Positions 1-15,160 of a stretch of DNA of 63,991 bases are shown here, in pieces; position 1 is the stretch's first letter; each line of letters opens with the position of its first letter. The notes under the pieces are model-generated. The model was not told where the DNA came from, did not search any database, and was given only the letters and a program-made list of their open reading frames with translations. The DNA comes from Acrocarpospora phusangensis (GTDB taxonomy: Bacteria > Actinomycetota > Actinomycetes > Streptosporangiales > Streptosporangiaceae), in contig NZ_BOOA01000051.1 in assembly GCF_016862995.1 (NCBI RefSeq), positions 1 through 63,991 of the forward strand. The letters run 5' to 3'. Both the position numbers and the translations under genes were made by a program.

Positions 1-1303
1 TGGTGGGGATGGTGGCCAGGGGGATGTCCCAGACGCGGATGTCCGGGGTGGTTGTCAGCACTTCGAGGACACGGATCAGGTGGTGGGCGAAGCGGGTGAC
101 GGTGGGAGCGTCGAAGAGGTCGGTCGCGTAGTCGATGTGGAGGTGGGTGGCTTCGGCGATCACCGTCATGTCGAAGCGGGCGGGAGGTGCGGAGAGGGCC
201 CAGGATTCGGCGGTGAGGCCGGGAGCGGGGTGGTGTACGCCTCCGGGCTCCCCGGTCACCAGCATGACCTGAAATATCGGGTTGAAGCTGAGATCCCTTC
301 GGCCGCCGAGCATGTCGACGACGACGTCGAACGGCAGCGAACGGTGATCCAACCCCGACATGGTCGTCTCGCGGACCTGCGCCAGCACGTCGCCCAGTGT
401 CGGATTGCCCGCCAGCCGCGTACGAAAGGCGAGCGTGTTCACGTAGAACCCGACCGACTGCTCCAGATCCGGATGATCGCGATCGGCGACCGGGGATCCG
501 ACGACGACATCGTCCACATCCGCCAGGCGGGCCAGCACCACTGCGAGCGCCGCCATCACCACCATGAACGGGGTGTGATCCGCCCGCCGGATGCCCTCCG
601 CGACCTTCTGCGGCAACGGCACCGAACATCGATCCCCGCGATGCGTCGCCCGGCTCGGCCGTACCCGATCGGTCGGTAAGGGAAGGAAACCGGGCGCGCC
701 GTCGAGTTCTCGCCGCCAGTAGTCGGCGGCCGACGTGTCCCTGCGCCCCGACGCCCACACCGCGTAATCGGGGAACTGGACCTTCACCTCCGGGAGGACC
801 TCACCGCGGTAGAGCGCGTAGACCTCCCCGAAGATCACCCCCACGGTCTCGCCGTCCGAGATCAGATGGTGCAGGCAGAGCACGAACACGTGCTCATCCA
901 CCCCTGTCTCCACCAGCAACGCCCTGATCAGCGGCCCCGTCGCGAGATCGAACCCGCGTCCCAGAAACTCGGCGACCGCCTCGTGAGCCGGGCCGATGAC
1001 GTAGTCCAGGACGACCTCGACGTGGGCATGGACTATCTGGGTGGCGCGGCCGTTCTCTTCGGTGAAAGACGTGCGGAGGGCTTCGTGGCGGTTGACGACT
1101 TCGGTGAGAGCCGCAGCAAGCGCCTTGGGGTCGAGAGGGCCGGTCAGGCGGTGGGCGGCCCAGCAAAGGTAGGTGTCGTCGGCGGTCCGGGAGAGGAACC
1201 AGAGGCGTTCTTGAGCGGATGTGAGCGGAATCGCGGCATCCGGGGAGCGCCGAGGAATCGTCGTGCGGGCGACTCGGGCCATACGAGCCCGCAAGCCGCC
1301 CAT
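1..1303 (-). CDS. NRPS, N-terminal condensation domain (3' end beyond window)
   Basis: Reading the minus strand from ATG 1303 gives an open frame to base 1 (about 434 codons). After a short leader (MGGLRARMARV) comes a standard condensation domain: SAQERLWFLSR entry motif, the catalytic HHLISDG motif, and later SVGFYVNTLAFR and HRSLPFDVVV. The C domain would catalyse peptide bond formation with the upstream carrier-bound chain. Adenylation and carrier domains are expected to follow but lie outside the window. The start overlaps the stop of the upstream DUF6875-like gene by one base (TGATG), so it is the fifth gene of a translationally coupled operon. The C-domain call is secure; module composition and product are unknown. 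Confidence 0.9.
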   Translation of the reverse strand, partial: MGGLRARMARVARTTIPRRSPDAAIPLTSAQERLWFLSRTADDTYLCWAAHRLTGPLDPKALAAALTEVVNRHEALRTSFTEENGRATQIVHAHVEVVLDYVIGPAHEAVAEFLGRGFDLATGPLIRALLVETGVDEHVFVLCLHHLISDGETVGVIFGEVYALYRGEVLPEVKVQFPDYAVWASGRRDTSAADYWRRELDGAPGFLPLPTDRVRPSRATHRGDRCSVPLPQKVAEGIRRADHTPFMVVMAALAVVLARLADVDDVVVGSPVADRDHPDLEQSVGFYVNTLAFRTRLAGNPTLGDVLAQVRETTMSGLDHRSLPFDVVVDMLGGRRDLSFNPIFQVMLVTGEPGGVHHPAPGLTAESWALSAPPARFDMTVIAEATHLHIDYATDLFDAPTVTRFAHHLIRVLEVLTTTPDIRVWDIPLATIPT

Positions 1304-1917
1304 CAGGTGATCACCACATCGCGCAGATGCGCGGGGACATGGTCACCGAAAAGCGCGCGATAGGCCCGCACATGCTCCGGATCATCGGCCAGAAAGGGCA
1401 GGTCGGTGGCGACCATGTGGCGGATGACCAGCATCGGTACCGGGCTCGCGAGCGGCCGCAGGTCCGGGTTCCAGAGCCCCGGCTTGTCCGGCGGCCCGTC
1501 ATGGAACTCCCCGATCATGAGCCCGTCCTGGACATACCGATCTTTGAGCCGCCTCTGGGCCGCGTCGATCAGATCCAACTCCCCGTACGCGTCCGGGAAC
1601 ACGATCAGGATCGTCGTGTGCAGCGCGTCCGGCTCCTCCCGCGGAGCCAGCTGAATGAACCACGCCCGGTACGGTTCGACCGCCTTCACCACCTCATCCA
1701 CCGACCTGAGCGCACCCGTCCGCAAAGCCAGATGGAATCGCCGGCGATCGATCGAGGACTGCGCGTACGGGCAGACCGGCCCGCGCCGGCCGAGGTCCGG
1801 GTGCGGGTTACAGAGATACTCGCGGGCCCAGCCGGCGGCCGCGCGGAGATGGCGGTGCTCGCCGACCTCGGTGATGTCGTAAAGGCGGAGCGCGGAGTCG
1901 CCGGGATTGATGATCAC
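1303..1917 (-). CDS. DUF6875-like hypothetical protein in NRPS operon
   Basis: A 204-residue protein of unknown function. I chose GTG 1917 because it overlaps the stop of the monooxygenase gene (GTGA) and has AGGAGG eight bases upstream; an ATG at 1941 is a weaker option. The sequence shows a GPVCPYAQ segment with a conserved-looking Cys near residue 50, a middle part typical of soluble globular proteins (ILIVFPDAYGE), and a VIRHMVATDLPFL stretch near the C-terminus. No signal peptide or membrane segment is seen. It resembles what I remember of the DUF6875 family, seen in biosynthetic clusters, but I cannot confirm this. Its position between the flavoenzyme and an NRPS suggests a tailoring or precursor role, which is inference only. 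Confidence 0.75.
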   Translation of the reverse strand: MIINPGDSALRLYDITEVGEHRHLRAAAGWAREYLCNPHPDLGRRGPVCPYAQSSIDRRRFHLALRTGALRSVDEVVKAVEPYRAWFIQLAPREEPDALHTTILIVFPDAYGELDLIDAAQRRLKDRYVQDGLMIGEFHDGPPDKPGLWNPDLRPLASPVPMLVIRHMVATDLPFLADDPEHVRAYRALFGDHVPAHLRDVVIT

Positions 1918-3197
1918 TGCACGTGCCTCCTGCGTTTCCATGCCGCCAGGACGGCTGCACCGGCGACCAGGCCGGCGAGCCCGGCACGCAGGACCAGCCG
2001 GTCCTGGGCTCGGGCGCGGTCGAGCGCGTCGCCGTACGGCATGGCGGTGTGGCTGATCATGGTGTAGAGGGGGCGCCAGTGGCCGGGGAAGGCCCGGCTG
2101 AGCAGGGTGTCGAGCCGTTTTCTGGCGCGGTGGAGGGGGGAACGCAGGCGGTCGCGCAGTTCCAGGAAGTTGTCCTCGGACAGGTCGGCGAGGACGTCGG
2201 TGTGCGGCTTTCTGGCCCGCTGGTAGGCGGCGAAGGCGGCGGCGCGGTCGGCGGGGTGGTCGGCCAGGCAGCCGTCGAGGACGACGCAGTCCTCGAAGGC
2301 GGAGTTCATGCCTTGTCCGTAGAAGGGGTACACGGCATGGCAGGCGTCGCCGATCAGGACGACCCGGTCGGCGTGGTGCCAATGCGAGGTCCGTACGGAG
2401 ACGAGGTGCCCGACCGGGTTCGCGGCGAACTGTGCGGAGACGTAGGGGATCGCGGCGGAAGGGAAGTTCCTCCGGAAGAAGCCGGCCACGTCGGAAAGTG
2501 CGGCCAGCTCCGCGTACGGCATGAAGAGGGTGCAGGTGAGGGAGCCGTCCACGTTCGGGTGGGCGACCATGAGGCCGCGTTCGCCGGGCCAGACGTGGAG
2601 GGCTTCCAGACGGTCGGTCGTCGGAAGGTGGAGCTCCTTGTAGCCCCAGTCGAGGAAGTCCTGCCGGAAGTCGGCGGGCAGGCCGCGGTGGGTCTCCTGG
2701 CGCACGGTGGAGAACGCGCCGTCGGCGCCGACGATGTAGTCGGGGGTGACGCGGCCGTGGCCGGTGACGGTGAGGGCGGGAACGTCACGTTCGATGCCGG
2801 TGCAGGGAGCGTCGAAGTGGAAGCGCACGCCGGGGGCGGCCTGTTCGACGAGGACGCGGGCGAGGGTGTCGCGGCGGATCGAGTAGAGGATCTCGGTGGG
2901 GTCCTGGCCATACGGCTGGAAGAAGGGTTCGCCGTCGCGGGGGTGCACGTATCGGCCGCGCATGGGGACGGTATGCGGGCGCACGTCCTCCCAGAGCCCG
3001 GCCAGGCGTAAGGCCCGGATCCCGCGGGCGGACAGGCCGAGGTTGATCGATCGTCCTTCGCCCGCGCTGCCCCGGCGGGGGTCGCCGCGGCGTTCGAAGA
3101 CCTCGACGCGGTGCCCGCGTTTGGCCAGATAGATCGCCATCAGGGAACCGGCGAGGCCGGCGCCGACGATGGCGACGTGGTTCAGCTGGTCGGGCAC
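1914..3197 (-). CDS. kmo: Kynurenine 3-monooxygenase-like FAD hydroxylase
   Basis: A 427-residue flavoprotein. The N-terminal VAIVGAGLAGSLMAIYLAKRG is the dinucleotide-binding fold, GRSINLGLS follows, and GDACHAVYPFYGQGMNSAFED is the second FAD motif. It follows eukaryotic kynurenine 3-monooxygenase (KMO) almost throughout, including PMRGR and QPYG. Arg82 and Tyr96 sit 14 residues apart, as do the carboxylate-binding Arg85 and Tyr99 of human KMO. The expected reaction is NADPH- and O2-dependent hydroxylation of L-kynurenine to 3-hydroxykynurenine. A C-terminal hydrophobic helix (about 405-420) followed by KRRR resembles a membrane anchor. The gene overlaps the upstream NRPS by 16 bases, so it probably supplies an aromatic building block; no kynureninase or tryptophan dioxygenase gene is in view. 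Confidence 0.85.
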   Translation of the reverse strand: MPDQLNHVAIVGAGLAGSLMAIYLAKRGHRVEVFERRGDPRRGSAGEGRSINLGLSARGIRALRLAGLWEDVRPHTVPMRGRYVHPRDGEPFFQPYGQDPTEILYSIRRDTLARVLVEQAAPGVRFHFDAPCTGIERDVPALTVTGHGRVTPDYIVGADGAFSTVRQETHRGLPADFRQDFLDWGYKELHLPTTDRLEALHVWPGERGLMVAHPNVDGSLTCTLFMPYAELAALSDVAGFFRRNFPSAAIPYVSAQFAANPVGHLVSVRTSHWHHADRVVLIGDACHAVYPFYGQGMNSAFEDCVVLDGCLADHPADRAAAFAAYQRARKPHTDVLADLSEDNFLELRDRLRSPLHRARKRLDTLLSRAFPGHWRPLYTMISHTAMPYGDALDRARAQDRLVLRAGLAGLVAGAAVLAAWKRRRHVQ

Positions 3198-6157
3198 CGC
3201 TCCGCCTCCTCCAGGATGGCCTCGACGGCCAGGGCGAACTCGGCGACCGTGCGCCGGGTGAACAGCGTGCGCACGGGGACGGCCAGGTCGGCGGCGTGGC
3301 GGATGCGGGCGATGACGCGGGTGGCGAGCAGGGAGTGGCCGCCGAGGGTGAAGAAGTCGTCCCCGGCGCCGACCCGGTCGAGGCCGAGCACGTCCGCCCA
3401 GATCTCCGCGACCAGTTCCTCCGCTTCGGATCGTGGCGGAATGTACGCCCCCGCGGATGTGGCCGGCGCGGGCAGGGCGGCGCGGTCCAGCTTTCCGTTC
3501 GCGGTCAGGGGGAAGCCGTCGACGTTCACCCAGTGGGTGGGGAGCAGATGCGGAGGAAGCGCCATAGAAACGTGCCGCCGCAGGTCGTCGTGGTCGGCGG
3601 TGCCGTCGACATAAGCGATGAGATCCCCGTCTCGTACGGTGACGACCGCTTGGCGAACTCCGGGGTGCGTCGCGAGGCAGGATTGGATCTCGCCTGGTTC
3701 GACCCGGAAGCCTCGGACCTTCACCTGGTCGTCGAGCCGCCCGAGGAATTCGAGCTGCCCGTCACGAAGCCAGCGGACTCGGTCACCGGTCCGGTAGAGG
3801 CGCGACCCTGGTTGTCCCTCGGGGTCGGGGACGAAACGCTCGGCCGTCAGTCGTGGTTGTCCGAGGTATCCGCGTGCGACCCCGATGCCGCCGATGAGCA
3901 GTTCGCCCGCCACGCCGACCGGGACCAGTTCCCCGTACTCGTCGGTCACGTGCACGGTCGTCTCCCCGATCGGACGGCCGATCGGCGGATTGCCCGGTCC
4001 GTCCAGGTCCGCCGCCGTCGCGACCACCGTCGTCTCGGTCGGGCCGTACGTGTTGACCAGCCGCACCCGATCCCCGAACCGCTGCCGCCAGGTCCGTACG
4101 GCGTCCGCCGCGACCTGCTCGCCGCCCAGGATTACCAGCCGCAATCCGTCCGGCCAGGCCAGGCCGTCGAGATCGCGTACCAGTTCGTGCCAGTACGCCG
4201 TCGGCAGGTCGAGCACCGTGACCTGCCGGCCTTCGGGCGTACGCAGGAAGTCGGGGAAGCTCCGCCCGCCGTCCGGCACCATGACGACCGTGGCCCCCGC
4301 CGCCAGGGCCGGGAAGATCTCCTCCACGTGCGCGTCGAAGCTCAACGCCGCGAACTGCGCCACCCGATCCCCGGGTTTCAGCCCGTACGCGTCCGCCATC
4401 CACCGCACCCGCGCGGCCACACTCCGCCGCTCGACCACGACGCCCTTGGGCGTTCCCGTCGATCCGGAGGTGTAGATCACGTAGGCCGGGTGGCTCTCGC
4501 GTATCCACATATCAGGCGGATCCACCGCTGAGGTGAGCCGCTCGACCTCGGATGCATCCGAGATGATCAGGCTCGCTTCGCTGTCGGACAGGAGATGGTC
4601 GACCCGCTCCGCCGGATATTCCGGATCTATCGCCAGGTAGGCGGCGCCCGTTCGCCAGATGGCGAGCAACGTCGCCACCAGGTCAATCGACCGGCCGAGC
4701 CGCACCCCGACGACCTGACTGGGACCGATGCCGCGGGCGAGAAGAACGGCGGCCAGCTCATCGATCCTGCGCGCGAGACCTCGGTATGTCAGTCGCCGAC
4801 CGGCGCACTCGATCGCAACGGAGTCCGGTGCGCCGCCCAGCACGACGACCTCGTCGACAGCACCGGTCTCAGCGGCCTGATCTCCTGCCCAGGAGGCGAG
4901 AAGGGCGCGTTCGGCCGGCGGGAGGAGAGGGAGACGGCTGATCTTCGTGTCCGGTTGGGTGGATATGCCGGACAGGAGCGTGAGGAAGCGCGTGGCGAGG
5001 TCGGCGATGGTTTCGGGGTCGAAGAGGTCGGTGTCGTAGGTGAAGGTGAGGCCGGTCAGGGTCGGGCCTTGGTAGATGTCGAGGGACAGGTCGGTCTTGG
5101 CGGTGGCGAGACCCGAGTCGAAGATCTCCACGGTCAGGTCGGCAAGGCGGGGGCGCTCCGACTGCGTCCGCATATACATGAACATGGCCTGAAAAGGCGC
5201 ACCGAATGGCAGTTCGCCCTGGTCGTAGGCGCGTAGGCAGGTATTGCGAGTGATCCGCAGCAGGTCACGGAAGAGGATGTCTCCGGAAATTTCGGTCCTG
5301 AGCATGATCAGCCCGGTGAAGTAGCCGATCAGTCGTTCCGTGTCGACGCGGCCACGGGCGATGATCGGCGTGGCGATGGTGACGTCGCGCTGACCGCAGT
5401 GCCGGGCCAGAAGAATCTGGAAGGCCGCGAGGAAGACCATGAAAACGGTCGCCCGTTCGGCCCTGGCCAATGATTCGAGCGTTTTGACCAGGTCAGGCGG
5501 AATCTCCCGATGAACCTGCGCTCCCCGAGCCGAACGCGTGGCCGGCCGGGGGCGGTCCGTAGGAAGCTCCAGCGGCGGAGCATCTTCGAGAACCCCCGTC
5601 CAGTACGCCGTGCGGGTGGCGGTGGCTTCGTCACGCGAACGGCGTACATGATCGGCGTATCGGATCGGGAGTGGCGGCAGGGGCGACGGCCGCCCCTCGA
5701 TGAACGCTTCGTAGAGGTCGGCCAGTTCGCGGAGCAGGACGTCGACCGACCAGCCGTCCGCCACGATGTGGTGCATGACCAGGCACAGAACATGGTCATC
5801 CTGGGCGATCCGGAACAGCGCGAAACGCGCGACAGGCCCGTTCGCGAGATCGAAAGGCTCGTTGGCCAGCCCGGCCACCCACTCCCGAACTTCCTCAAGC
5901 GACGCTTCGCGATGTTCGAGCGGAATGCCCTCCTGCACGACCACACAGACCGGAGAACCGTCCTCTTCGGCGAAACGGCTCCGCAGCACGTCATGGCGAT
6001 CCACGATCTCGACCAGCGCCCGGCGCAGCGCCGCCGCGTCAAGGGGCCCGTGGATTCGAAGGGCGATCGGCATGTTGTACGAGGCGTCGCCCGGATCGAG
6101 CCGATGCAGAAACCAGAGCCGCTCCTGGCCCGGAGTCAGCGGCCCCGCCGGGGTCAT
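3182..6157 (-). CDS. NRPS module C-A-T (predicted basic substrate)
   Basis: A 991-residue single elongation module. The condensation domain (about 1-430) has HHIVADG at 129-135. The adenylation domain (about 440-860) has YIYTSGSTG-type A3, NTYGPTE A5 and the A10 lysine in NGKLDRAAL. The carrier domain (about 890-960) has DDFFTLGGHSL with the phosphopantetheine serine. Aligned by eye to GrsA, the ten specificity positions read D-A-E-D-I-G-T-V-V-K. Glu at 239 and Asp at 278 resemble the lysine-type code of BacB, so a basic or amino-bearing substrate is my guess. No epimerase or thioesterase is present. The start overlaps the stop of the upstream Gly module (ATGA). Confidence 0.93.
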   Translation of the reverse strand: MTPAGPLTPGQERLWFLHRLDPGDASYNMPIALRIHGPLDAAALRRALVEIVDRHDVLRSRFAEEDGSPVCVVVQEGIPLEHREASLEEVREWVAGLANEPFDLANGPVARFALFRIAQDDHVLCLVMHHIVADGWSVDVLLRELADLYEAFIEGRPSPLPPLPIRYADHVRRSRDEATATRTAYWTGVLEDAPPLELPTDRPRPATRSARGAQVHREIPPDLVKTLESLARAERATVFMVFLAAFQILLARHCGQRDVTIATPIIARGRVDTERLIGYFTGLIMLRTEISGDILFRDLLRITRNTCLRAYDQGELPFGAPFQAMFMYMRTQSERPRLADLTVEIFDSGLATAKTDLSLDIYQGPTLTGLTFTYDTDLFDPETIADLATRFLTLLSGISTQPDTKISRLPLLPPAERALLASWAGDQAAETGAVDEVVVLGGAPDSVAIECAGRRLTYRGLARRIDELAAVLLARGIGPSQVVGVRLGRSIDLVATLLAIWRTGAAYLAIDPEYPAERVDHLLSDSEASLIISDASEVERLTSAVDPPDMWIRESHPAYVIYTSGSTGTPKGVVVERRSVAARVRWMADAYGLKPGDRVAQFAALSFDAHVEEIFPALAAGATVVMVPDGGRSFPDFLRTPEGRQVTVLDLPTAYWHELVRDLDGLAWPDGLRLVILGGEQVAADAVRTWRQRFGDRVRLVNTYGPTETTVVATAADLDGPGNPPIGRPIGETTVHVTDEYGELVPVGVAGELLIGGIGVARGYLGQPRLTAERFVPDPEGQPGSRLYRTGDRVRWLRDGQLEFLGRLDDQVKVRGFRVEPGEIQSCLATHPGVRQAVVTVRDGDLIAYVDGTADHDDLRRHVSMALPPHLLPTHWVNVDGFPLTANGKLDRAALPAPATSAGAYIPPRSEAEELVAEIWADVLGLDRVGAGDDFFTLGGHSLLATRVIARIRHAADLAVPVRTLFTRRTVAEFALAVEAILEEAERCPTS

Positions 6158-9100
6158 GTGCGGTCCCCCCGTTCACCGATCGCGGCGGCGATTCCAGTGA
6201 TCGTCGGGGTGTCGAAGAACGTGTAGAACGGCACGTCCACGTCGAAGCGGTCACGGATCCTTGCGGCGATCTGGGCAATGGTGAGCGAGTGCCCACCCAG
6301 GTCGAAAAGGCTCTCCTCCGGACCGATGCCCTCCATGCCGAACACGTCCGCCCAGATCTCAGCCACCGCTTCGAGCGGTGACTCACTCGCGGAGACCGCG
6401 GCGGCGGGCTCGTCATGCCGGGGCAGGGCGGCACGGTCAAGCTTGCCGTTCGGCGTGAGCGGCATGCTGCCGAGCTCGACGAACGCGGCGGGCACCATGT
6501 AGGCAGGCACCTGCCGGGCAAGATGACGACGCAGGTCAGGCCCCCCACCCACTGTGTACGCGATCAGCTCCTCGTCCTGGACGACGACCGCGGCCTCCTT
6601 CACGTGGGCCAGCAGGCACGCCTCGATCTCGCCGAGCTCGATCCGGTGGCCACGAAGTTTGACCTGATTGTCGGTACGCCCAAGGAACTCCAGCCCGTCA
6701 CCGCGCAACCGAACCCGATCCCCCGTCCGGTACATGCGCACCGGCTCGGAACGGAAACGCTCGGCGGTCAGCTCGGGACGATTCAGGTAACCGCGGGCGA
6801 GTCCGGCTCCCGCGATGTAGAGCTCACCAGGGATGCCCGCAGGCACGGGGTCCAGGTCGTCATCCAGGACGAACACCTGGGTGTTGGCGATCGGACGACC
6901 AATCCGCACATGCTCCGGATTGAGCGGAATCTCGGCCAGGGTCGACCAGATCGTGGTCTCCGTCGGGCCATACATGTTGAGCAAGCGGCCGACGCGGGGC
7001 CGCAGCCGCGCCGCCAGCGGCAGAGGAAGGGCTTCTCCGCCGGTCAGCACGGTTCCATCGAACCGGAATCCCGCATCCAGGAGCATCCGCCAGGTGGACG
7101 GGGTCGCCTGCACATGCGTGACCGCGTGACGTCCGGCCAACCGCGTCAACGCGTCACCGTCAGCGGTCTCGCCCTCCCCGGCGATGACGACCGACCCGCC
7201 GGTGACCAGCGGCAGCCAGAGTTCAAGCGCGGAAATATCGAACGACCACGACGTCACCGCAAGCCAGACATCCCCCGATCCGGCCCGCAACTCATCCCGC
7301 ATCGACAGCAGGAGGTTAACCAGCGCCCGATGCTCGATCTCCACCCCTTTCGGCCGCCCAGTGGACCCGGAGGTGTAGATCACGTACGCAAGCACCCCAG
7401 CCGAACCACGCTCGGCCGAACCCGAACCCGAACCCGAACCCTGTGCGGAAGTCGATTCGTCGTCTGGAACATCGGCGAGAGGGACTACCGTCGCGCCCGC
7501 CAACCAGGTACCCGGATCCGCGAGTAGGACCTTGGCCCCGGAGTCGGCGAGGATGTAGTCGAGCCGCTCAGCCGGATATGCCGGATCAAGCGGCAGATAA
7601 GCGGCTCCCGCCTTCCAGCAGGCCAGCACCCCGGCCACCATCCGCTCCGACCTACCGGCGGCCAGCGCGACCAGATCGCCCGCCTCAACCCCGGCATCCC
7701 GGAGCCGCCCCGCCAGCCGCCCCGCCAACCGATCCAGGTCGACATAGCTCAGCCGCACATCCCCGCTGACCACAGCCACCGCGTCCGGCGTGGCCGCAAC
7801 CTGCTCCAGAAATAGCTCCAGAGCCCCTACCTGCGGATACTCCACAACCGCGCCAGTCATAGCCGACACCGATCCACCCGCGACCGCACTCGCCGTAGCG
7901 ACCATGGCCGCACCCGCCATGGCCGACGGTGGGCCACCCACGACCGCACCCTCCAGTGCCAGCGCCGAGCCACTCTCGACCGCACTCACGACGGCTAGCT
8001 TCGAGACATCCTCGACCGCACCCTCCACAGTCGGCGCCGAGCCACCCACGACCCCACCCGCTATGGCCGACGCCGAGCTACCCACGACCTCAGCCACGAT
8101 GGCCGACTTCGAGCCACCCTCGACCGCAGGCACGATGGCGAACGCCGAGCCTCCCGCCACCCCGCCTCCCACGGCGAGGTTCACCGGTGCCGAGCCACCC
8201 ACGACCGCTTCCGTGAACGACTCACCCGCTAGCCGGTCGCTCAACACCAGCTCGCGGACCCTTATGTCAGGATTTTTCGTGATCTGCGTAAGGATGGATT
8301 GCCAGTGGGACGCGATTCGTTCCACGTCGGTTCGGGCGATCGACCCGGGGGCGAACTGCAACATGACGCCCAGCCCGTCGGGCCCGTCCACCAGGTGGAT
8401 CCGCAACGCGTTCCGGGCGGTGTGGTTGAAAAGCACCCAGTCCACGGTCGTCCCGGGCGGGGGCGCGATCCGGCGGCGATAGGTCAGCGATACGGGCGCG
8501 AGCGACACCCCGGGCCGGACTCCGGAGACCGCCCTGCTCAGGGGAACTTCGCGGACCTGGTAAAGCTCTCGCAGGCCCGCGCGTACAGACCGGGCGAACT
8601 CCGCGAAGCCCATCTCACGCGCAGGCTCGGAGGCGAAGGGCAACTCGTTCACGTACACGCCGATGCGGCCACGCGCCTCCGCAGGCCGTACGCCGAGATC
8701 CAGGGCGGTCACCGGCCGGTGGTTGCCGTAGCGGCGCAACAGCGCGTGCACGCTCGCGACGACCGTCTCGAACCTGGTCACGCCAAGACGCGCGGCGGCG
8801 TTCTCCAGCACCGACGAGGGCAGCCGGAACTCGACAGCATCGCCGGGCTGAACCTCCTGGCCGGACCGCTCGAAGCCGGGCAGCACGACCTCGTCGGGTT
8901 CCGCCCACCGCCCCGACCAGTACGCCCGCGCCGCCGGAGTCCCGGCCGCGATCCGCGCCGCCTCGACCTCGGGATGCTCCCCCGGCCCGAGCTCAGCCAG
9001 CTCGGGCGCGAACCCCGCCGTCTCCGCCCGGTAACACGCCGCCAGATCGGCGACGAAGATGTCGGTGGACTGCCCGTCGAAGGCCAGGTGGTGCACGATG

Positions 9101-9435
9101 ACGAGCAGCCGCCCGTCCTCCAGCAGGCTGAACCGCGCCAGCGGCCCTTTCTCCAGGTCGAACGGCCGGAGAATCTCCGTACGAGGGTCTGAACCGAGTT
9201 CGACGCGGACCGGAGCGCCTTCGACCAGGTACGGAACCCCGTCCGACTGCCGGACCGCCGCCCGGAGCAGCGGATGCCGGTCGACCATGCGCGCGCACGC
9301 GCGGCCGAGGGCCGGCACGTCGACAGGACCGGCGAACCGGACCGCGAACGGCATGTGGTGTACCGCTCCCAGGTCGCTGAGCTGCTCGTTGAACCAGATG
9401 CCGCGCTGCGGTACCGAGATCCGAACGTGTTCCAT
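6154..9435 (-). CDS. NRPS module C-A-T (predicted glycine) with repetitive C-A linker
   Basis: A 1093-residue module and the first gene of the minus-strand operon. The condensation domain (about 1-400) has HHLAFDG at 115-121. The adenylation domain (about 535-950) has YVIYTSGSTG, NMYGPTETT and NGKLDRAAL. The carrier domain has LFDLGGHSL. The by-eye specificity code is D-I-L-Q-L-G-M-I-W-K, nearly the classic glycine code DILQLGLIWK. Between C and A (about 410-533) lies an odd 124-residue stretch of Ala, Val, Gly and Ser in roughly ten degenerate 12-residue units (VVGGSAP-type), far longer than a usual C-A linker. The start is 130 bp from a divergent plus-strand NRPS gene, so the intergenic region probably carries back-to-back promoters. 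Confidence 0.93.
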   Translation of the reverse strand: MEHVRISVPQRGIWFNEQLSDLGAVHHMPFAVRFAGPVDVPALGRACARMVDRHPLLRAAVRQSDGVPYLVEGAPVRVELGSDPRTEILRPFDLEKGPLARFSLLEDGRLLVIVHHLAFDGQSTDIFVADLAACYRAETAGFAPELAELGPGEHPEVEAARIAAGTPAARAYWSGRWAEPDEVVLPGFERSGQEVQPGDAVEFRLPSSVLENAAARLGVTRFETVVASVHALLRRYGNHRPVTALDLGVRPAEARGRIGVYVNELPFASEPAREMGFAEFARSVRAGLRELYQVREVPLSRAVSGVRPGVSLAPVSLTYRRRIAPPPGTTVDWVLFNHTARNALRIHLVDGPDGLGVMLQFAPGSIARTDVERIASHWQSILTQITKNPDIRVRELVLSDRLAGESFTEAVVGGSAPVNLAVGGGVAGGSAFAIVPAVEGGSKSAIVAEVVGSSASAIAGGVVGGSAPTVEGAVEDVSKLAVVSAVESGSALALEGAVVGGPPSAMAGAAMVATASAVAGGSVSAMTGAVVEYPQVGALELFLEQVAATPDAVAVVSGDVRLSYVDLDRLAGRLAGRLRDAGVEAGDLVALAAGRSERMVAGVLACWKAGAAYLPLDPAYPAERLDYILADSGAKVLLADPGTWLAGATVVPLADVPDDESTSAQGSGSGSGSAERGSAGVLAYVIYTSGSTGRPKGVEIEHRALVNLLLSMRDELRAGSGDVWLAVTSWSFDISALELWLPLVTGGSVVIAGEGETADGDALTRLAGRHAVTHVQATPSTWRMLLDAGFRFDGTVLTGGEALPLPLAARLRPRVGRLLNMYGPTETTIWSTLAEIPLNPEHVRIGRPIANTQVFVLDDDLDPVPAGIPGELYIAGAGLARGYLNRPELTAERFRSEPVRMYRTGDRVRLRGDGLEFLGRTDNQVKLRGHRIELGEIEACLLAHVKEAAVVVQDEELIAYTVGGGPDLRRHLARQVPAYMVPAAFVELGSMPLTPNGKLDRAALPRHDEPAAAVSASESPLEAVAEIWADVFGMEGIGPEESLFDLGGHSLTIAQIAARIRDRFDVDVPFYTFFDTPTITGIAAAIGERGDRT
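7837..8208 (-). repeat. Degenerate 36-bp in-frame repeats in NRPS linker
   Basis: About ten imperfect 36-bp units encode a 12-residue pattern of the kind A-V-V-G-G-S-A-P-A-I-A-G between the C and A domains of the glycine module. On the plus strand the recurring core is gccgagccacccacgac. Units vary by substitution and small in-frame length changes, as in an old expanded minisatellite. Confidence 0.75.
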
Positions 9436-9565
9436 TGAACCGCCCCAACGATCGCTTATTTCGTGAGTATGACTAGAAATTGCATCCGTTTGCTAGATAC
9501 TTGTGATGATTCGTTCGGAGTGGTTTACTCCGAGGGATCATCGACGGCTGCGGAGAGGCGGGACG

Positions 9566-12500
9566 ATGACCGTCACACTCCCCGGACTGCTCCGGGCCCG
9601 GGCTGGTGAGCAACCCTCAAGAACGGCTCTGATCTGCGACGACAGTGTGAAGTTGAGCTTCGGGGAGTGGGACGAGCAGGCCGACGCCACCGCGTCCGCG
9701 CTACTCGGCCGGGGACTCGCGCCCGGGACCGGGTCGGCCTGCTGTTCGAGAACGACCGCTGGGCTGAGTACGCGGTCGCGTTCCTGGGCGTGCTCCGGGC
9801 CGGCGGAGTGGCGGTCCCGCTCCCAGCGCGGCAGTCCGAGGCCACCCTCCGCCTGATGATCGACGACTGCCAGGCCCGCTGGGTCCTGGACCAAGCGCTC
9901 CACGACACCCGCCGGACTCGGGCCGATGATCCGGACGTCCAAGATCCACAGATTGATCCGGGACGACCCAAGGCTGATCCCGGAGCCGACTCGACGGCAG
10001 GACCGAGAGTGGAGCCGGACAACGAGAAGAAGCCCACCCTCAATCCGGACGATCCCGCACAGATCCTCTACACGTCCGGGACGACCGGACGGCCGAAGGG
10101 CGTCGCGGCCAGTCACGCGAACCTGGCGTTCGGGCATCGGCCGCATCCCGCCCACCGGATGTTGTCGCATTCGGAGTATTTCCTGCACGCGTTCCCGATC
10201 GGGACGAACGCCGCGCAGATGATGCTCGTCAACACGCTCGTCGCGCACCCCACCGCGCTCGTCGCGTCCGTCTTCGACGCCGAACGTTTCTGCGCCGCGA
10301 TCGCGGAGCGCAGGGTCGGCACGGTGTTCGTGGTCCCCTCGATGGCCGCCGACCTGCTCAGTTCGGAGGCGTGGCGGCGACACGACCTGTCGTCGGTGCT
10401 CCTGCTCAGCTCGTCGGCCGACGCGCTCCCCCCGCACGTGGCGAGCGCGCTCCCGCGGGCCTTTCCCAAGGCCACGATCGTGAACTTCTACACCTCCACG
10501 GAGGCCGTACCCGCCCAGACCACCATGATCGTCGATCCGGCGCGCCCGCACTCGGTGGGCCGGGCGACCGAGTCCGGCGATCTCCGGATCGTCGGCGAGG
10601 ACGGGGAACCGGCCGCGACCGGGGAGGCCGGCGAGGTCTGGTTACGGGCTCCCGCCGCGCAGCGCTCCTACTACGGGGACCCCCAGGCGAGCGCGCGCGT
10701 GTTCCAGCGGGGCTGGACGCGCATGGGCGATCTCGGCTACCTCGACCGGGACGGATACCTCTACCTGGTCGGACGCGACTCCGACGTGATCAAGTCGGGA
10801 GGCCTGAAGGTCTCCGCGCCGCAGGTGGAGGCGGCGCTGCGGGAACATCCCGCGGTGGCCGAGGCCGCCGTGCTCGGCGTGCCGCACCCGGTGATGGGCG
10901 CGATGGTCGCCGCCGCCGTCGTGGCACGCGACCCGGTGAGCGCCGACGAGCTCAGGACCTTCCTGCACCAGCGCCTCGCCCGCAACGAGATCCCCACCCG
11001 GTACGCCTTCGTCGACCGCCTCCCCAGAAACGACCTGGGCAAGGTCGTCAAAGGCGAGCTGCGGGAGCTGTTCACCGCTCCGCGGAGCACCGGCGGACGG
11101 CCGCTGGAAACCCCGGAGCAGCACGCCCTGGCCCGGCTGTGGAGCGCGGTGCTCGGCCTGCCGGTGACGAGCCCGGACGACGACTTCTTCGCGCTGGGCG
11201 GCGACTCGCTCAAAGCCGCTCAACTCGCCACAAGGGCGGCGGTGGAGTTCGGCGTGGACGTGCCCGGCACCCTCGCCTTCGACCACCCGGTCTTGTCCGC
11301 ACAGGCCGTCCAGGTAGCCGCGGAACGCCCAGCGCGGAGCCCGGTTGATCCGGAGACTGCTCCGGCGGAGGGGGCGCTGTCCGGGGTCCAGGAGCATTGG
11401 TGGCGCTGGATGCACGCCACCGCCGAGACCCGGCACATGCCGCCCGTGCACGTCGCCGTGGAGATCGACGGCGACCTCGACGCGGACCTCCTGGATCGCT
11501 GCCTGACCGAGCTCACCATCAGGCACGAGGCCCTGCGCACCGTCTTCCGGGACGGCCGTGCCGTCGTCATGCCGGAATCCGGCGTACGCCTCACCCTGCA
11601 CGAAGCACGTGACGCTCAAGAAGCCGGTGACCTGGCCGCCGAGTTGGTCCGTGCGCCCTTCGACATCCGCCGGGGACCCCTGCTCCGCGCCGCCCTGATC
11701 CGCCTCCGCCGTGGGCGTACGGGTGGCGCGGCAGAACCCGCCGCCGGTGGTGGCCGTTTTCGGGATTGCGGCCCCACCGGCGGCGTGAGTTCCGCCGTCC
11801 TCGTCCTGGCGGCCCACCACATGGTCTTCGACGGGTGGTCGGCCGGGGTGCTCCTGCGCGAACTGGGCGTGCTCTATTCCGCCTTCGCGCATGACGCCCC
11901 TTCCCCCCTGCCGACTCCGTCCCCGTACGCCGACTTCGTCGCCTTCGAGCACCGCGAATGGCACCGGACCCGCGACCACTGGACGGCCACCCTGGCGGGC
12001 GCCCCGCGTACGCTCCCGGACCTTCCCGGCCGCGCCCCCGACGTGACCAGGTGCGCCGCCATCGCCCACGAGTTCCCCGTCGATCCCGTACGGGACCTGG
12101 CCGTCCGCCGCAACGCGACCCCCGCCATGGTCCTGGCCGCCGCCTGGGCCGTCACGCTGGGCGCCTGGGCGGGCTCCCCCGAGGTCGTCCTGGCCACTCC
12201 CGTCACCGGCCGTTCCCGTCCCGAGTTCGACGCCACGGTCGGCTGCCTGTTCCGCTGGAACCTCCTGCGCGTCCCCGTCGCCGGCGACGTCATCGCCCAC
12301 GTACGGCAGGCCGCCCTCACCGCGGGCGAGCACCAGTTCCACAACTTCGCCCGCCTGCACGACCTGGTGCCCTACCCGGCGTACTTCCGTTTCGAGAGCT
12401 GGGGCCGCCCCGCCCACCTCCCCGGGCTGCCGTCCCGGGAGTTCGCCGTCCCCGCCGGCCCGATCATGGAATGGCGGCTGGCCGACGACGACCCCGACAC

Positions 12501-12642
12501 CCATCCGCCCGAACTGCTCGTCACCGAGCACCCCGACGGCTCCCTGACCGGCTCGATGATCTACAACAGGCACGCCTACCGCACGCCGGACATGAGCCGG
12601 CTCGCCACCGCCTTCACCGAGACGATCACCCGGCTGACCTGA
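9566..12642 (+). CDS. NRPS A-T-C protein, acyl/aryl-type adenylation, apparent frameshift
   Basis: The start at ATG 9566 follows GAGAGG and reads MTVTLPGLLRARAGEQPSR in one frame up to LAPG. Near 9725-9728 (cccgggacc) homology jumps to the -1 frame (DRVGLLFENDRWAEYA), which then stays open to 12642. One extra G in the GGG run would restore LAPGDRVGLLFEND. The long part contains a CoA-ligase-like A domain (LYTSGTTGRPKG, NFYTSTEA, LVGRDSDVIKSGGLK), a carrier domain (FALGGDSLKAAQLA) and a C-terminal condensation domain (AAHHMVFDGWS). The A domain looks like those activating carboxylic acids without an amino group, so it may load a starter acid. Whether the frameshift is real or a sequencing error cannot be told from here; if real the protein is broken. 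The stop abuts the convergent permease stop. Confidence 0.8.
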
Positions 12643-13428
12643 TCAGGCGGTCAGCAGGCGCCGCCACCTGCGGCGGGCCAGCAGGAAGCAGACCAGGCCC
12701 ACCGCGGCCAGATACCCGGCGTTCCCCAGCAGCCCCGGCCCCACCTGGCCGAGCGCGGGCCCGCGCACCAGCTCGATGGCGTGATAGAGCGGCAGCGCCC
12801 GCACCACGGCCGCCACCGGCTCGGGATAGACCGTCACCGGATAGAAGGTGGTGGCGAACAGGAACATCGGCAGCATGACCAGCTGCATGTACTGGAAATC
12901 ACTCCATCCGCGCACATACCCGGCGGTGAGGAAGCCCGCCGCGCCGAACGTGAACGCGATGAGCAGCCCTGCGGGCACGGCCAGCAGCACCCAGGGCGAG
13001 GTCACCAGGCCGAGGGCGGTGACCACGGCCAGGAAGCCGAGCCCGGTGATGAGGCCGCGCAGCATGCCCCAGGCGATCTCCCCCAGCACCAGGCCGGAGA
13101 CCGTGATCGGCGTCACGGCCAGCGAATGGTAGAACCGGTCGAAGGCGAACTTCGCGTACGCGGTCTGGGTGGTCTCCTCCAGCGCGCTGTTCATCACCGC
13201 CGTGGCCAGCAGCGCCGGCGCGACGAACGCCGCGTACGGAACCTCCACCCCCGGCACCTCCCCCACCAGCCCGCCGATGCCCACCCCGATCGCCAGCAGG
13301 TAGAGGATCGGCTCGAAGACCGAGAACAGCGCCATCGTCCACGGGCTGCCGCCCTTGTGCACCCAGAGGTTGCGCAGCACCACCAGGTGGGCGCCGCCGG
13401 CCGGCGGGAGCGCGATGCGGTCGTTCAT
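12643..13428 (-). CDS. ABC-2 type exporter permease (DrrB-like), second copy
   Basis: A 261-residue membrane protein starting at ATG 13428, which overlaps the preceding permease stop as ATGA. About six hydrophobic segments are visible: LFSVFEPILYLLAIGVGIG, VAPALLATAVMNSA, a GLITGLGFLAVVTALG stretch, and FLFATTFYPVTVYPEPVAAV. The arrangement is that of ABC-2 membrane subunits of drug and natural-product exporters. It is the third gene of an ATPase-permease-permease set. It probably forms a heterodimer with the adjacent permease and exports the peptide made by the neighbouring NRPS, which is inference from proximity. It is convergent with the A-T-C gene with no bases between the stops. Confidence 0.88.
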   Translation of the reverse strand: MNDRIALPPAGGAHLVVLRNLWVHKGGSPWTMALFSVFEPILYLLAIGVGIGGLVGEVPGVEVPYAAFVAPALLATAVMNSALEETTQTAYAKFAFDRFYHSLAVTPITVSGLVLGEIAWGMLRGLITGLGFLAVVTALGLVTSPWVLLAVPAGLLIAFTFGAAGFLTAGYVRGWSDFQYMQLVMLPMFLFATTFYPVTVYPEPVAAVVRALPLYHAIELVRGPALGQVGPGLLGNAGYLAAVGLVCFLLARRRWRRLLTA

Positions 13429-14213
13429 GCGTGCAGACACCGCCGGAAGGTCACGCGCGCGACCAGGACCCCGGCCACGCAGCAGAGGGTCAGATAGCCG
13501 GCGTGGAGCAGGCTCGTGCCGGGCGTCGCCGTGCCCAGCGCCAGCGCCCGGCACAGGTCCACGCCGTGCCAGAGCGGCAGCGCGTACGCGACCGCGCGCA
13601 GCGGCCCCGGCAGCTGGGTGACCGAGAAGAAGGTCCCCGAGAACAGGTACATGGGCATGACCACGAACCGGAACACGGTGTTGAGCTGCGGGAAGTCGGA
13701 CACGGTGACCGCCCAGGCGGCCAGCGGTGCGGCGAACGCCAGCCCGGTCAGGGTGGCCGCGAGCGTCACCGCCAGGGCCACGCCGACGCTGCCGGTCAGC
13801 CCGAACAGCGCCATCACCACGACGAAGGCCGCCGCGCTGAGCATGAGCCGGAGCGTGATGAACATCAGGTGCCCGGCCAGGATGTGCCCCGGTTCGAGTG
13901 GAGTCGCCGCGGCCGTCGAGTAGATCCGCTCCCGCCGCAGCGCGCTGTTGACCTTGAACCCGGCCTCCACGAAGGCGTTCTGCAGCGTGGCCGCGGCCAG
14001 CAGCCCCGGCGCGAAGAACGCCAGGTACGACGCCCCTTCCACGGTGCCCTCGACCAGGGTGCCGAGCCCGGCCCCGATCGCCAGCAGGAACAGGATCGGG
14101 TTGGCGACGCTCACCACGATCGTGCCCCGCCAGGTCCGCCGGTAGCGCACCAGCCAGTACGCCAGCGCCCGGAACGCCATCCCCGCCCCACCCCCCGAAT
14201 CCCGAAATTTCAT
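13425..14213 (-). CDS. ABC-2 type exporter permease (DrrB-like), first copy
   Basis: A 262-residue membrane protein. The start taken is ATG 14213, two bases after the ATPase stop; an internal ATG at 14180 with a G-rich sequence in front is also possible and would remove eleven residues. Hydrophobic segments include TIVVSVANPILFLLAIGAG, FFAPGLLAAATLQNAF, AAFVVVMALFGLTG and VVMPMYLFSGTFFSVTQLPG, the usual ABC-2 permease pattern. It is related to the downstream permease, so the pair probably arose by duplication and acts with the ATPase encoded just upstream. Confidence 0.87.
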   Translation of the reverse strand: MKFRDSGGGAGMAFRALAYWLVRYRRTWRGTIVVSVANPILFLLAIGAGLGTLVEGTVEGASYLAFFAPGLLAAATLQNAFVEAGFKVNSALRRERIYSTAAATPLEPGHILAGHLMFITLRLMLSAAAFVVVMALFGLTGSVGVALAVTLAATLTGLAFAAPLAAWAVTVSDFPQLNTVFRFVVMPMYLFSGTFFSVTQLPGPLRAVAYALPLWHGVDLCRALALGTATPGTSLLHAGYLTLCCVAGVLVARVTFRRCLHA

Positions 14214-14215
14214 GC

Positions 14216-15147
<932 letters not shown>

Positions 15148-15160
<13 letters not shown>

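Follow-up and report, generated by a model that had tools for sequence, protein, structure and literature searches.

The window analysed here, bases 1 to 63,991 of contig C51 (NZ_BOOA01000051.1) in the 9.1 Mb, 219-contig assembly of the soil actinomycete Acrocarpospora phusangensis, carries at its left edge a nonribosomal peptide synthetase (NRPS) cassette that is real, conserved and apparently undescribed. With a probability of about 50%, we read it as a reductively released NRPS cluster around a paralogue of kynurenine monooxygenase (KMO), a DUF6875 heme protein and an NRPS protein with condensation, adenylation, thiolation and reductase domains (C-A-T-reductase), together with a major facilitator superfamily (MFS) protein and an O-methyltransferase-type protein. 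The pair of KMO paralogue and DUF6875 protein is the interesting part of the cluster and probably makes an unusual amino acid for the end of the peptide. The original prediction, made from the sequence of the window, could name no matching cluster, and our literature search, which covered neither subscription journals nor MIBiG and included no antiSMASH comparison, likewise found no description of such a cluster; it also gave no match for products of the organism or for a tryptophan 7-hydroxylase.

The cassette was sampled at 24 loci on genome contigs that contain a close relative of the DUF6875 protein. The KMO paralogue is adjacent to the DUF6875 gene in 16 of these loci, the C-A-T-reductase and the MFS gene are likewise present in 16, and a methyltransferase was found in the analysed stretch in 13. 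KMO paralogue, DUF6875 and C-A-T-reductase occur together in 15 of the 24 loci, a count that omits L014, which has no adjacent KMO, and L013, which is cut like the window; the other seven loci have different surroundings. Cassettes are found in Acrocarpospora, Nonomuraea, Rhizohabitans, Sinosporangium, Planobispora, Actinophytocola, Actinocorallia, Micromonospora, Actinokineospora and Thermoactinospora. Since the first genomes had been chosen for DUF6875, we used a second sample of 151 genomes from the genus of the Micromonospora locus, in which DUF6875 occurred at 26 places in 22 genomes, with the KMO paralogue adjacent at 14 of them (13/24 without the Micromonospora genome itself). The KMO paralogue is uncommon, since only 4 of 394 genomes of the class, the window's own counted, contain it (E <= 1e-105). 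Further pairs of KMO paralogue and DUF6875 were seen at G060:C4, G064:C7/C13 and G067:C20 (L078, L080, L087, L086), and one strain may therefore hold more than one cassette.

The modules upstream of the C-A-T-reductase differ between cassettes among the 14 stretches listed. The adenylation code of the terminal module, D-A-G-D-(M/V/L)-(V/I)-H-V-C, was present in all 19 C-A-T-reductases of an alignment of 19 domains, taken from 16 of the genome loci and from genomes G036, G019 and G031, with the window's own A domain missing; we take the position numbers in this pocket to be Gly239, Asp278 and His322. That the terminal code stays constant while the modules ahead of it vary suggests a cassette that produces a single special residue and places it at the C-terminus of the peptide.

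Because the window and contig C51 begin at the same base, the leftmost gene is cut. Gene calls and Pfam domains bear out the predicted set of five coupled minus-strand genes, which overlap or abut, and a divergent A-T-C gene, and the following features are read directly from the sequence:

2 to 1303, minus strand: condensation (C) domain, the N-terminal part of the terminal NRPS, truncated at the contig edge (Pfam PF00668, 5.2e-76; HHLISDG motif)
1303 to 1941 (start at 1941 or 1917), minus strand: DUF6875 protein (PF21780, 7.5e-67)
1914 to 3197, minus strand: KMO-like class A flavoprotein monooxygenase of the DUF6875-linked clade (PDB KMO matches, 5.8e-76; clade and pocket comparison)
3182 to 6157, minus strand: NRPS module C-A-T with the code D-A-E-D-V-L-T-V-V (Pfam; A code)
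6154 to 9435, minus strand: NRPS module C-A-T with the code D-I-L-Q-V-T-M-I-W, predicted to be Gly-like, and a repeat-rich insert (Pfam; A code)
9436 to 9565, no strand: divergent intergenic region between both transcription units (alignment)
9566 to 12642, plus strand: A-T-C gene whose adenylation domain (for the starter acid) is of the acyl-CoA-ligase type, with a C-terminal C domain and a frame break (Pfam; frames)

The C domain at the contig edge is predicted to be the start of the terminal C-A-T-reductase, based on orthology with G036, a genome of the same family, where the first domain of the C-A-T-reductase gene is 56% identical. In G036 the orthologous locus is uninterrupted (L038 and L039) and comprises the starter A-T-C gene, two C-A-T modules, the KMO paralogue, DUF6875, the C-A-T-reductase, the MFS protein and the O-methyltransferase-type protein; its reductase domain matches PF07993 (6.2e-58), and the last protein has PF00891/PF08100 domains. 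The C-A-T-reductase was thus found directly in G036 and, for the window, by orthology. In the window genome the far end of the cluster lies at the end of contig C36, as a reductase remnant with a frame break followed by the MFS and methyltransferase genes; contigs C165, C166, C94 and C65 had been considered for the missing part and were set aside, the remainder having been found at the end of C36. The original prediction had been right about a compact NRPS cluster and had missed the reductase end, the MFS gene and the methyltransferase gene on the other contig, as well as the heme tryptophan oxidase role reported for the DUF6875 family. The leftward extension it proposed stops at the contig end, and the rest could be traced to C36 and G036. 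The closest named relative of the locus is that of Acrocarpospora corrugata NBRC 13972 (L013), with 87% identity for DUF6875 and 91% for KMO; the locus of genome G002 is this same contig with identical proteins. Among the matches listed, neither Acrocarpospora assembly showed the A-T part of the terminal module, which seems to fall in a gap in both.

The flavoenzyme of the window had been called KMO-like, and full-length homology confirms this (5.8e-76 to 6lkd over residues 7-415 of 427; PF01494, FAD-binding fold). At E <= 1e-70, a search of the 16 cassette genomes with a KMO encoded beside tryptophan 2,3-dioxygenase (TDO) and kynureninase gave 32 matches, and 30 were analysed. Eighteen are of the window type and all of them (18/18) have DUF6875 adjacent, which is true of none of the 12 canonical ones (0/12); TDO lies within the 1.5 kb analysed flank of six of these 12. 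Both types are present in 11 of the 16 genomes and the paralogue only in five. Unrooted trees separate the 23 DUF6875-linked KMOs from the 17 other sequences (nine TDO-linked, six unlinked and two known enzymes) with a support of 1.0 in FastTree and an ultrafast bootstrap of 100 in IQ-TREE.

Nine alignment columns distinguish the two groups, being fixed in at least 95% of the 23 and fixed differently in at least 90% of the 17. The head-group residues R84, Y98 and N369 (numbering of the Pseudomonas fluorescens enzyme, PfKMO) are present in 23/23 and Y404 in 22/23, and the window enzyme has all four of these carboxylate/amine-binding residues. At the ring end, A56G, I106L, L226H and M373L occur in all 23, I224 is replaced by V in 22 and by L in one, and L213, F238, P318 and F319 are unchanged in 23/23; the canonical hydrophobic ring pocket (A56, I106, L213, I224, L226, F238, P318, F319, M373) is not found in the window clade. 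In the full alignment, the mammalian KMO residue at 106 is I. The ring contacts given for the P. fluorescens enzyme are F238, P318, F319, H320, G321, A56, I106, L213 and M373 in the excerpt of PMC5477544, which also describes Leu226 as lining a water-filled pocket near the ligand, and L213, L226, I224, F238 and M373 in the excerpt of PMC6376250; a text search of the excerpt of PMC8747024 for pocket residues gave no match. Five of the nine columns (A56G, I106L, I224V, L226H, M373L) fall within the 11 ring contacts published in these excerpts. The hypergeometric values for this overlap (5e-7 over 424 residues, 5e-5 over 147 conserved columns) describe a concentration and are no formal test, related sequences not being independent. 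The plain reading is a flavoenzyme that would have kept its grip on the amino acid and had its ring end re-specified.

Compared with KMO proper (EC 1.14.13.9), the window enzyme is thus alike in its full-length homology, FAD-binding fold, head-group residues and 37% identity to the P. fluorescens enzyme. It is unlike KMO in belonging to a separate clade with nine clade substitutions, five of them at the ring contacts of the excerpts cited above, and in being encoded in NRPS operons beside DUF6875 and not beside TDO or kynureninase. Full-length homology and the retention of R84, Y98, N369 and Y404 would also suit ordinary KMO chemistry, in which kynurenine from TDO would be converted to 3-hydroxykynurenine, methylated and loaded, with a separate job for DUF6875. 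TDO was found in 20 of 21 cassette genomes tested, and the excerpt of PMC9570651 describes kynurenine-derived hydroxyanthranilates in pyrrolobenzodiazepines. What makes this explanation doubtful is that the nine substitutions are concentrated in the ring pocket, where the TDO-linked paralogues are canonical, that the pairing with DUF6875 is tight, and that one cassette is located in a genome, G070, with no match to TDO or to indoleamine 2,3-dioxygenase (IDO).

A role of the flavoenzyme in primary tryptophan catabolism, which the original prediction had named as an outcome that would speak against it, could be ruled out. TDO, kynureninase and a canonical KMO lie side by side in G036, G031 and G002, and this linked KMO is a separate paralogue; genomes with a kynureninase-linked KMO hold it as a second, canonical copy. 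The window genome has TDO and no second KMO-like match above 71.1 bits. Two genomes have TDO but no canonical KMO, with TDO at G000:C1 (L055) and G019:C9 (L057), where, by eye, the gene calls next to TDO included no kynureninase-like start.

Searching 22 cassette stretches and the window for TDO and kynureninase (E <= 1e-5, with the identity of the kynureninase query confirmed) gave nothing except one match in L014 of 25% identity over 192 residues, which we take for another pyridoxal phosphate (PLP) enzyme. In Actinocorallia sp. API 0066 (G070), which carries the cassette and for which genome completeness is not given, searches for TDO and IDO gave no match. In view of this one cassette genome and of the failure to find a kynureninase, free 3-hydroxykynurenine or 3-hydroxyanthranilate is less likely. 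The earlier suggestion that the special unit is one of these two compounds was not supported, given the absence of kynureninase and TDO from the cassette stretches bar the weak PLP-type match, the G070 result and the changed ring pocket; the proposed check for a kynureninase gene likewise ended with the weak L014 match.

The second enzyme of the pair, predicted as DUF6875-like, is a near full-length match to PF21780 (1303-1941; 225.3 bits against a cut-off of 24.5). It contains the blocks LGRRGPVCP and GLMIGEFHDGPP, and C57 and H147 are invariant in 25/25 sequences of the family alignment; a PDB search with the protein returned nothing useful (best E 5.6). DUF6875 proteins have been described as heme L-tryptophan oxidases of the 'cytochrome P422' family, with tryptophan 'oxidations' in the plural, and deletion of the DUF6875 gene zigI led to a demethoxylated shunt product (PMC13307353). 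By analogy, the cassette pair of DUF6875 and methyltransferase would fit the logic of zigI. The plural wording could also accommodate a DUF6875 protein that opens the indole itself in place of TDO, with the KMO paralogue acting on an oxygenated kynurenine to give a kynurenine-type terminal residue. Such a route would account for the KMO ancestry and for the independence from TDO, but the genetic test points to aromatic hydroxylation (PMC13307353) and identity within DUF6875 does not reveal the reaction, and we regard ring opening as unlikely.

By its PF21780 match, the window protein would belong with oxidases such as ZigI. The zigralone cluster differs in making a terpenoid quinolone, whereas the cassette has an NRPS context and a KMO paralogue. 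In L101, L102 and L104, which are candidate zig-type clusters, a methyltransferase-like gene and P450-like gene starts neighbour the DUF6875 gene, an arrangement like that of zigralone. The window protein is 43% identical to the proteins of L101 and L102, with LGR-x-G-x-VCP and LMIG(E/Q)FH blocks in common, the methyltransferase and P450-like neighbours being theirs. L105, L107, L108 and L109 hold a distant subgroup (about 31-32% identity), next to an adenylation-type gene and, by eye, a dioxygenase-like gene, and this subgroup is a different pathway type.

The elongation modules and the starter gene concern the variable part of the peptide. The module at 3182-6157 probably loads a basic amino acid, as its code DAEDVLTVV has two acidic pocket residues; the same code type is present in G002, G036 and L020. 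For the module at 6154-9435, the code DILQVTMIW is predicted to be Gly-like. The starter, Gly and basic-residue modules of the original prediction are thereby supported, the basic one as probable. Between the C and A domains of the 6154-9435 protein lies a repeat-rich in-frame insert of 36/108-base units (window 7908-8163); the G002 orthologue, with 984 instead of 1093 amino acids, is 109 shorter and has no alignment across the insert. In the starter gene, the ATG at 9566 opens a frame other than that of the ORF 9667-12642, with the break near 9.7 kb (window 9566-9730), and in G002 and G036 the orthologues can be read through from the corresponding ATG. A second frame break of the same cluster is located in the reductase domain (G000:C36:88568-88644), and the two are either two assembly errors or signs of a decaying cluster in the window strain. 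In a PDB search, the closest solved structures to the starter A domain were fatty-acyl/feruloyl-CoA synthetases. The extra C-terminal C domain has a separate-gene homologue in L022 and L024 (34-35% identity), and the G002 starter protein contains low-complexity stretches.

Within the divergent region (9436-9565), some 60 bases form a block that is nearly identical in an alignment of the window, G002 and G036, and this conservation supports joint control of both cluster halves. A scan of 9436-9565 for a sigma-70-type consensus found none, and the conserved block is a possible site for a putative pathway regulator. Adjoining the cluster, an ABC transporter with two ABC-2 permeases and an ATPase is encoded on the minus strand (12643-15160), and similar-looking genes, judged by gene starts, occupy the same position in G002 (L037) and G036 (L039). 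This transporter may be the export or resistance set of the cluster, or it may be unrelated.

The substrates, reaction order, regiochemistry and product that we infer are the following. DUF6875 would oxygenate L-tryptophan, most likely at C7, and the KMO paralogue, with its KMO-like head-group grip and more polar ring pocket, would place a second oxygen on the oxygenated ring system. The methyltransferase would then cap a hydroxyl, and the terminal module, whose pocket is the same in 19/19 relatives, would load the modified amino acid. The starter acid, a Gly-like residue and a basic residue would be joined and condensed onto this special residue, after which the reductase would free the peptide as an aldehyde, with further reduction or imine closure possible, and the MFS protein would export the product. 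In its most detailed form the proposal is tentative and, at odds clearly below even, envisages 7-hydroxytryptophan from DUF6875, a second ring hydroxyl at C6 or C4 from the KMO paralogue, and hence a catechol- or hydroquinone-type indole amino acid that is O-methylated and becomes a reactive tryptophan-derived aldehyde warhead made by the reductase throughout the family.

Related logic is known from other pathways. Pyrrolobenzodiazepine clusters (anthramycin, sibiromycin, tomaymycin) also have a kynurenine-monooxygenase step, a methyltransferase and C-A-T-reductase release, according to the excerpt of PMC9570651, and a pathway of this or the actinomycin type, with 3-hydroxyanthranilate priming the A-T-C protein, might thus be considered. 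In contrast to these clusters, the cassette has more modules and a DUF6875 gene, no kynureninase was found in the 22 cassette stretches and the window apart from the weak PLP-type match, and the special residue is read as terminal. In addition, the starter A domain is acyl-CoA-ligase-like and lies outside the conserved core. We rejected such a pathway as very improbable, since no kynureninase beyond that weak match turned up in the stretches searched and since what stays constant across cassettes is the terminal module rather than the starter. A looser parallel is the saframycin-type tetrahydroisoquinoline NRPS, in which SfmC is a C-A-T-reductase, the terminal module has Pictet-Spengler activity and the unit, unlike the one proposed here, is tyrosine-based. 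Its similarity to the cassette is one of logic only, a heme hydroxylase (SfmD) and methylations supplying the NRPS SfmC with an aromatic amino acid in modified form (excerpt of PMC9570651).

Several observations weigh against the proposed tryptophan-based cluster. In the second sample, 12 of the 26 DUF6875 places have no KMO, the methyltransferase was called in only 13 of the 16 reductase-bearing stretches, and the L014 cassette has no adjacent KMO. A kynurenine-type substrate is likewise compatible with the homology to KMO and with the retained head-group residues; 15 of the 16 named cassette genomes and 5/5 others have TDO, so that kynurenine is available to most cassette hosts. Four of the nine distinguishing columns (222, 362, 366, 409) lie outside the published ring set, and the sequences compared are related and not independent. 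The C7 site rests on one paper's account, and the cluster of the window strain itself may be inactive, as its starter gene and its reductase each contain a frame break.

Two enzyme families, the KMO-type flavoenzymes and the little-studied DUF6875 heme proteins, are linked by these results through a single conserved NRPS cassette, and a few listed residues together with one A-domain code allow the substrate question to be tested directly. If the proposed reading is true, the pair would provide access to a new building block of the amino-acid type, and the cassette would give genome mining a rule for predicting peptides that rare actinomycetes release reductively. The less probable detailed form given above would also mean that a family of peptides from rare actinomycetes, with variable N-terminal parts, has one warhead in common.

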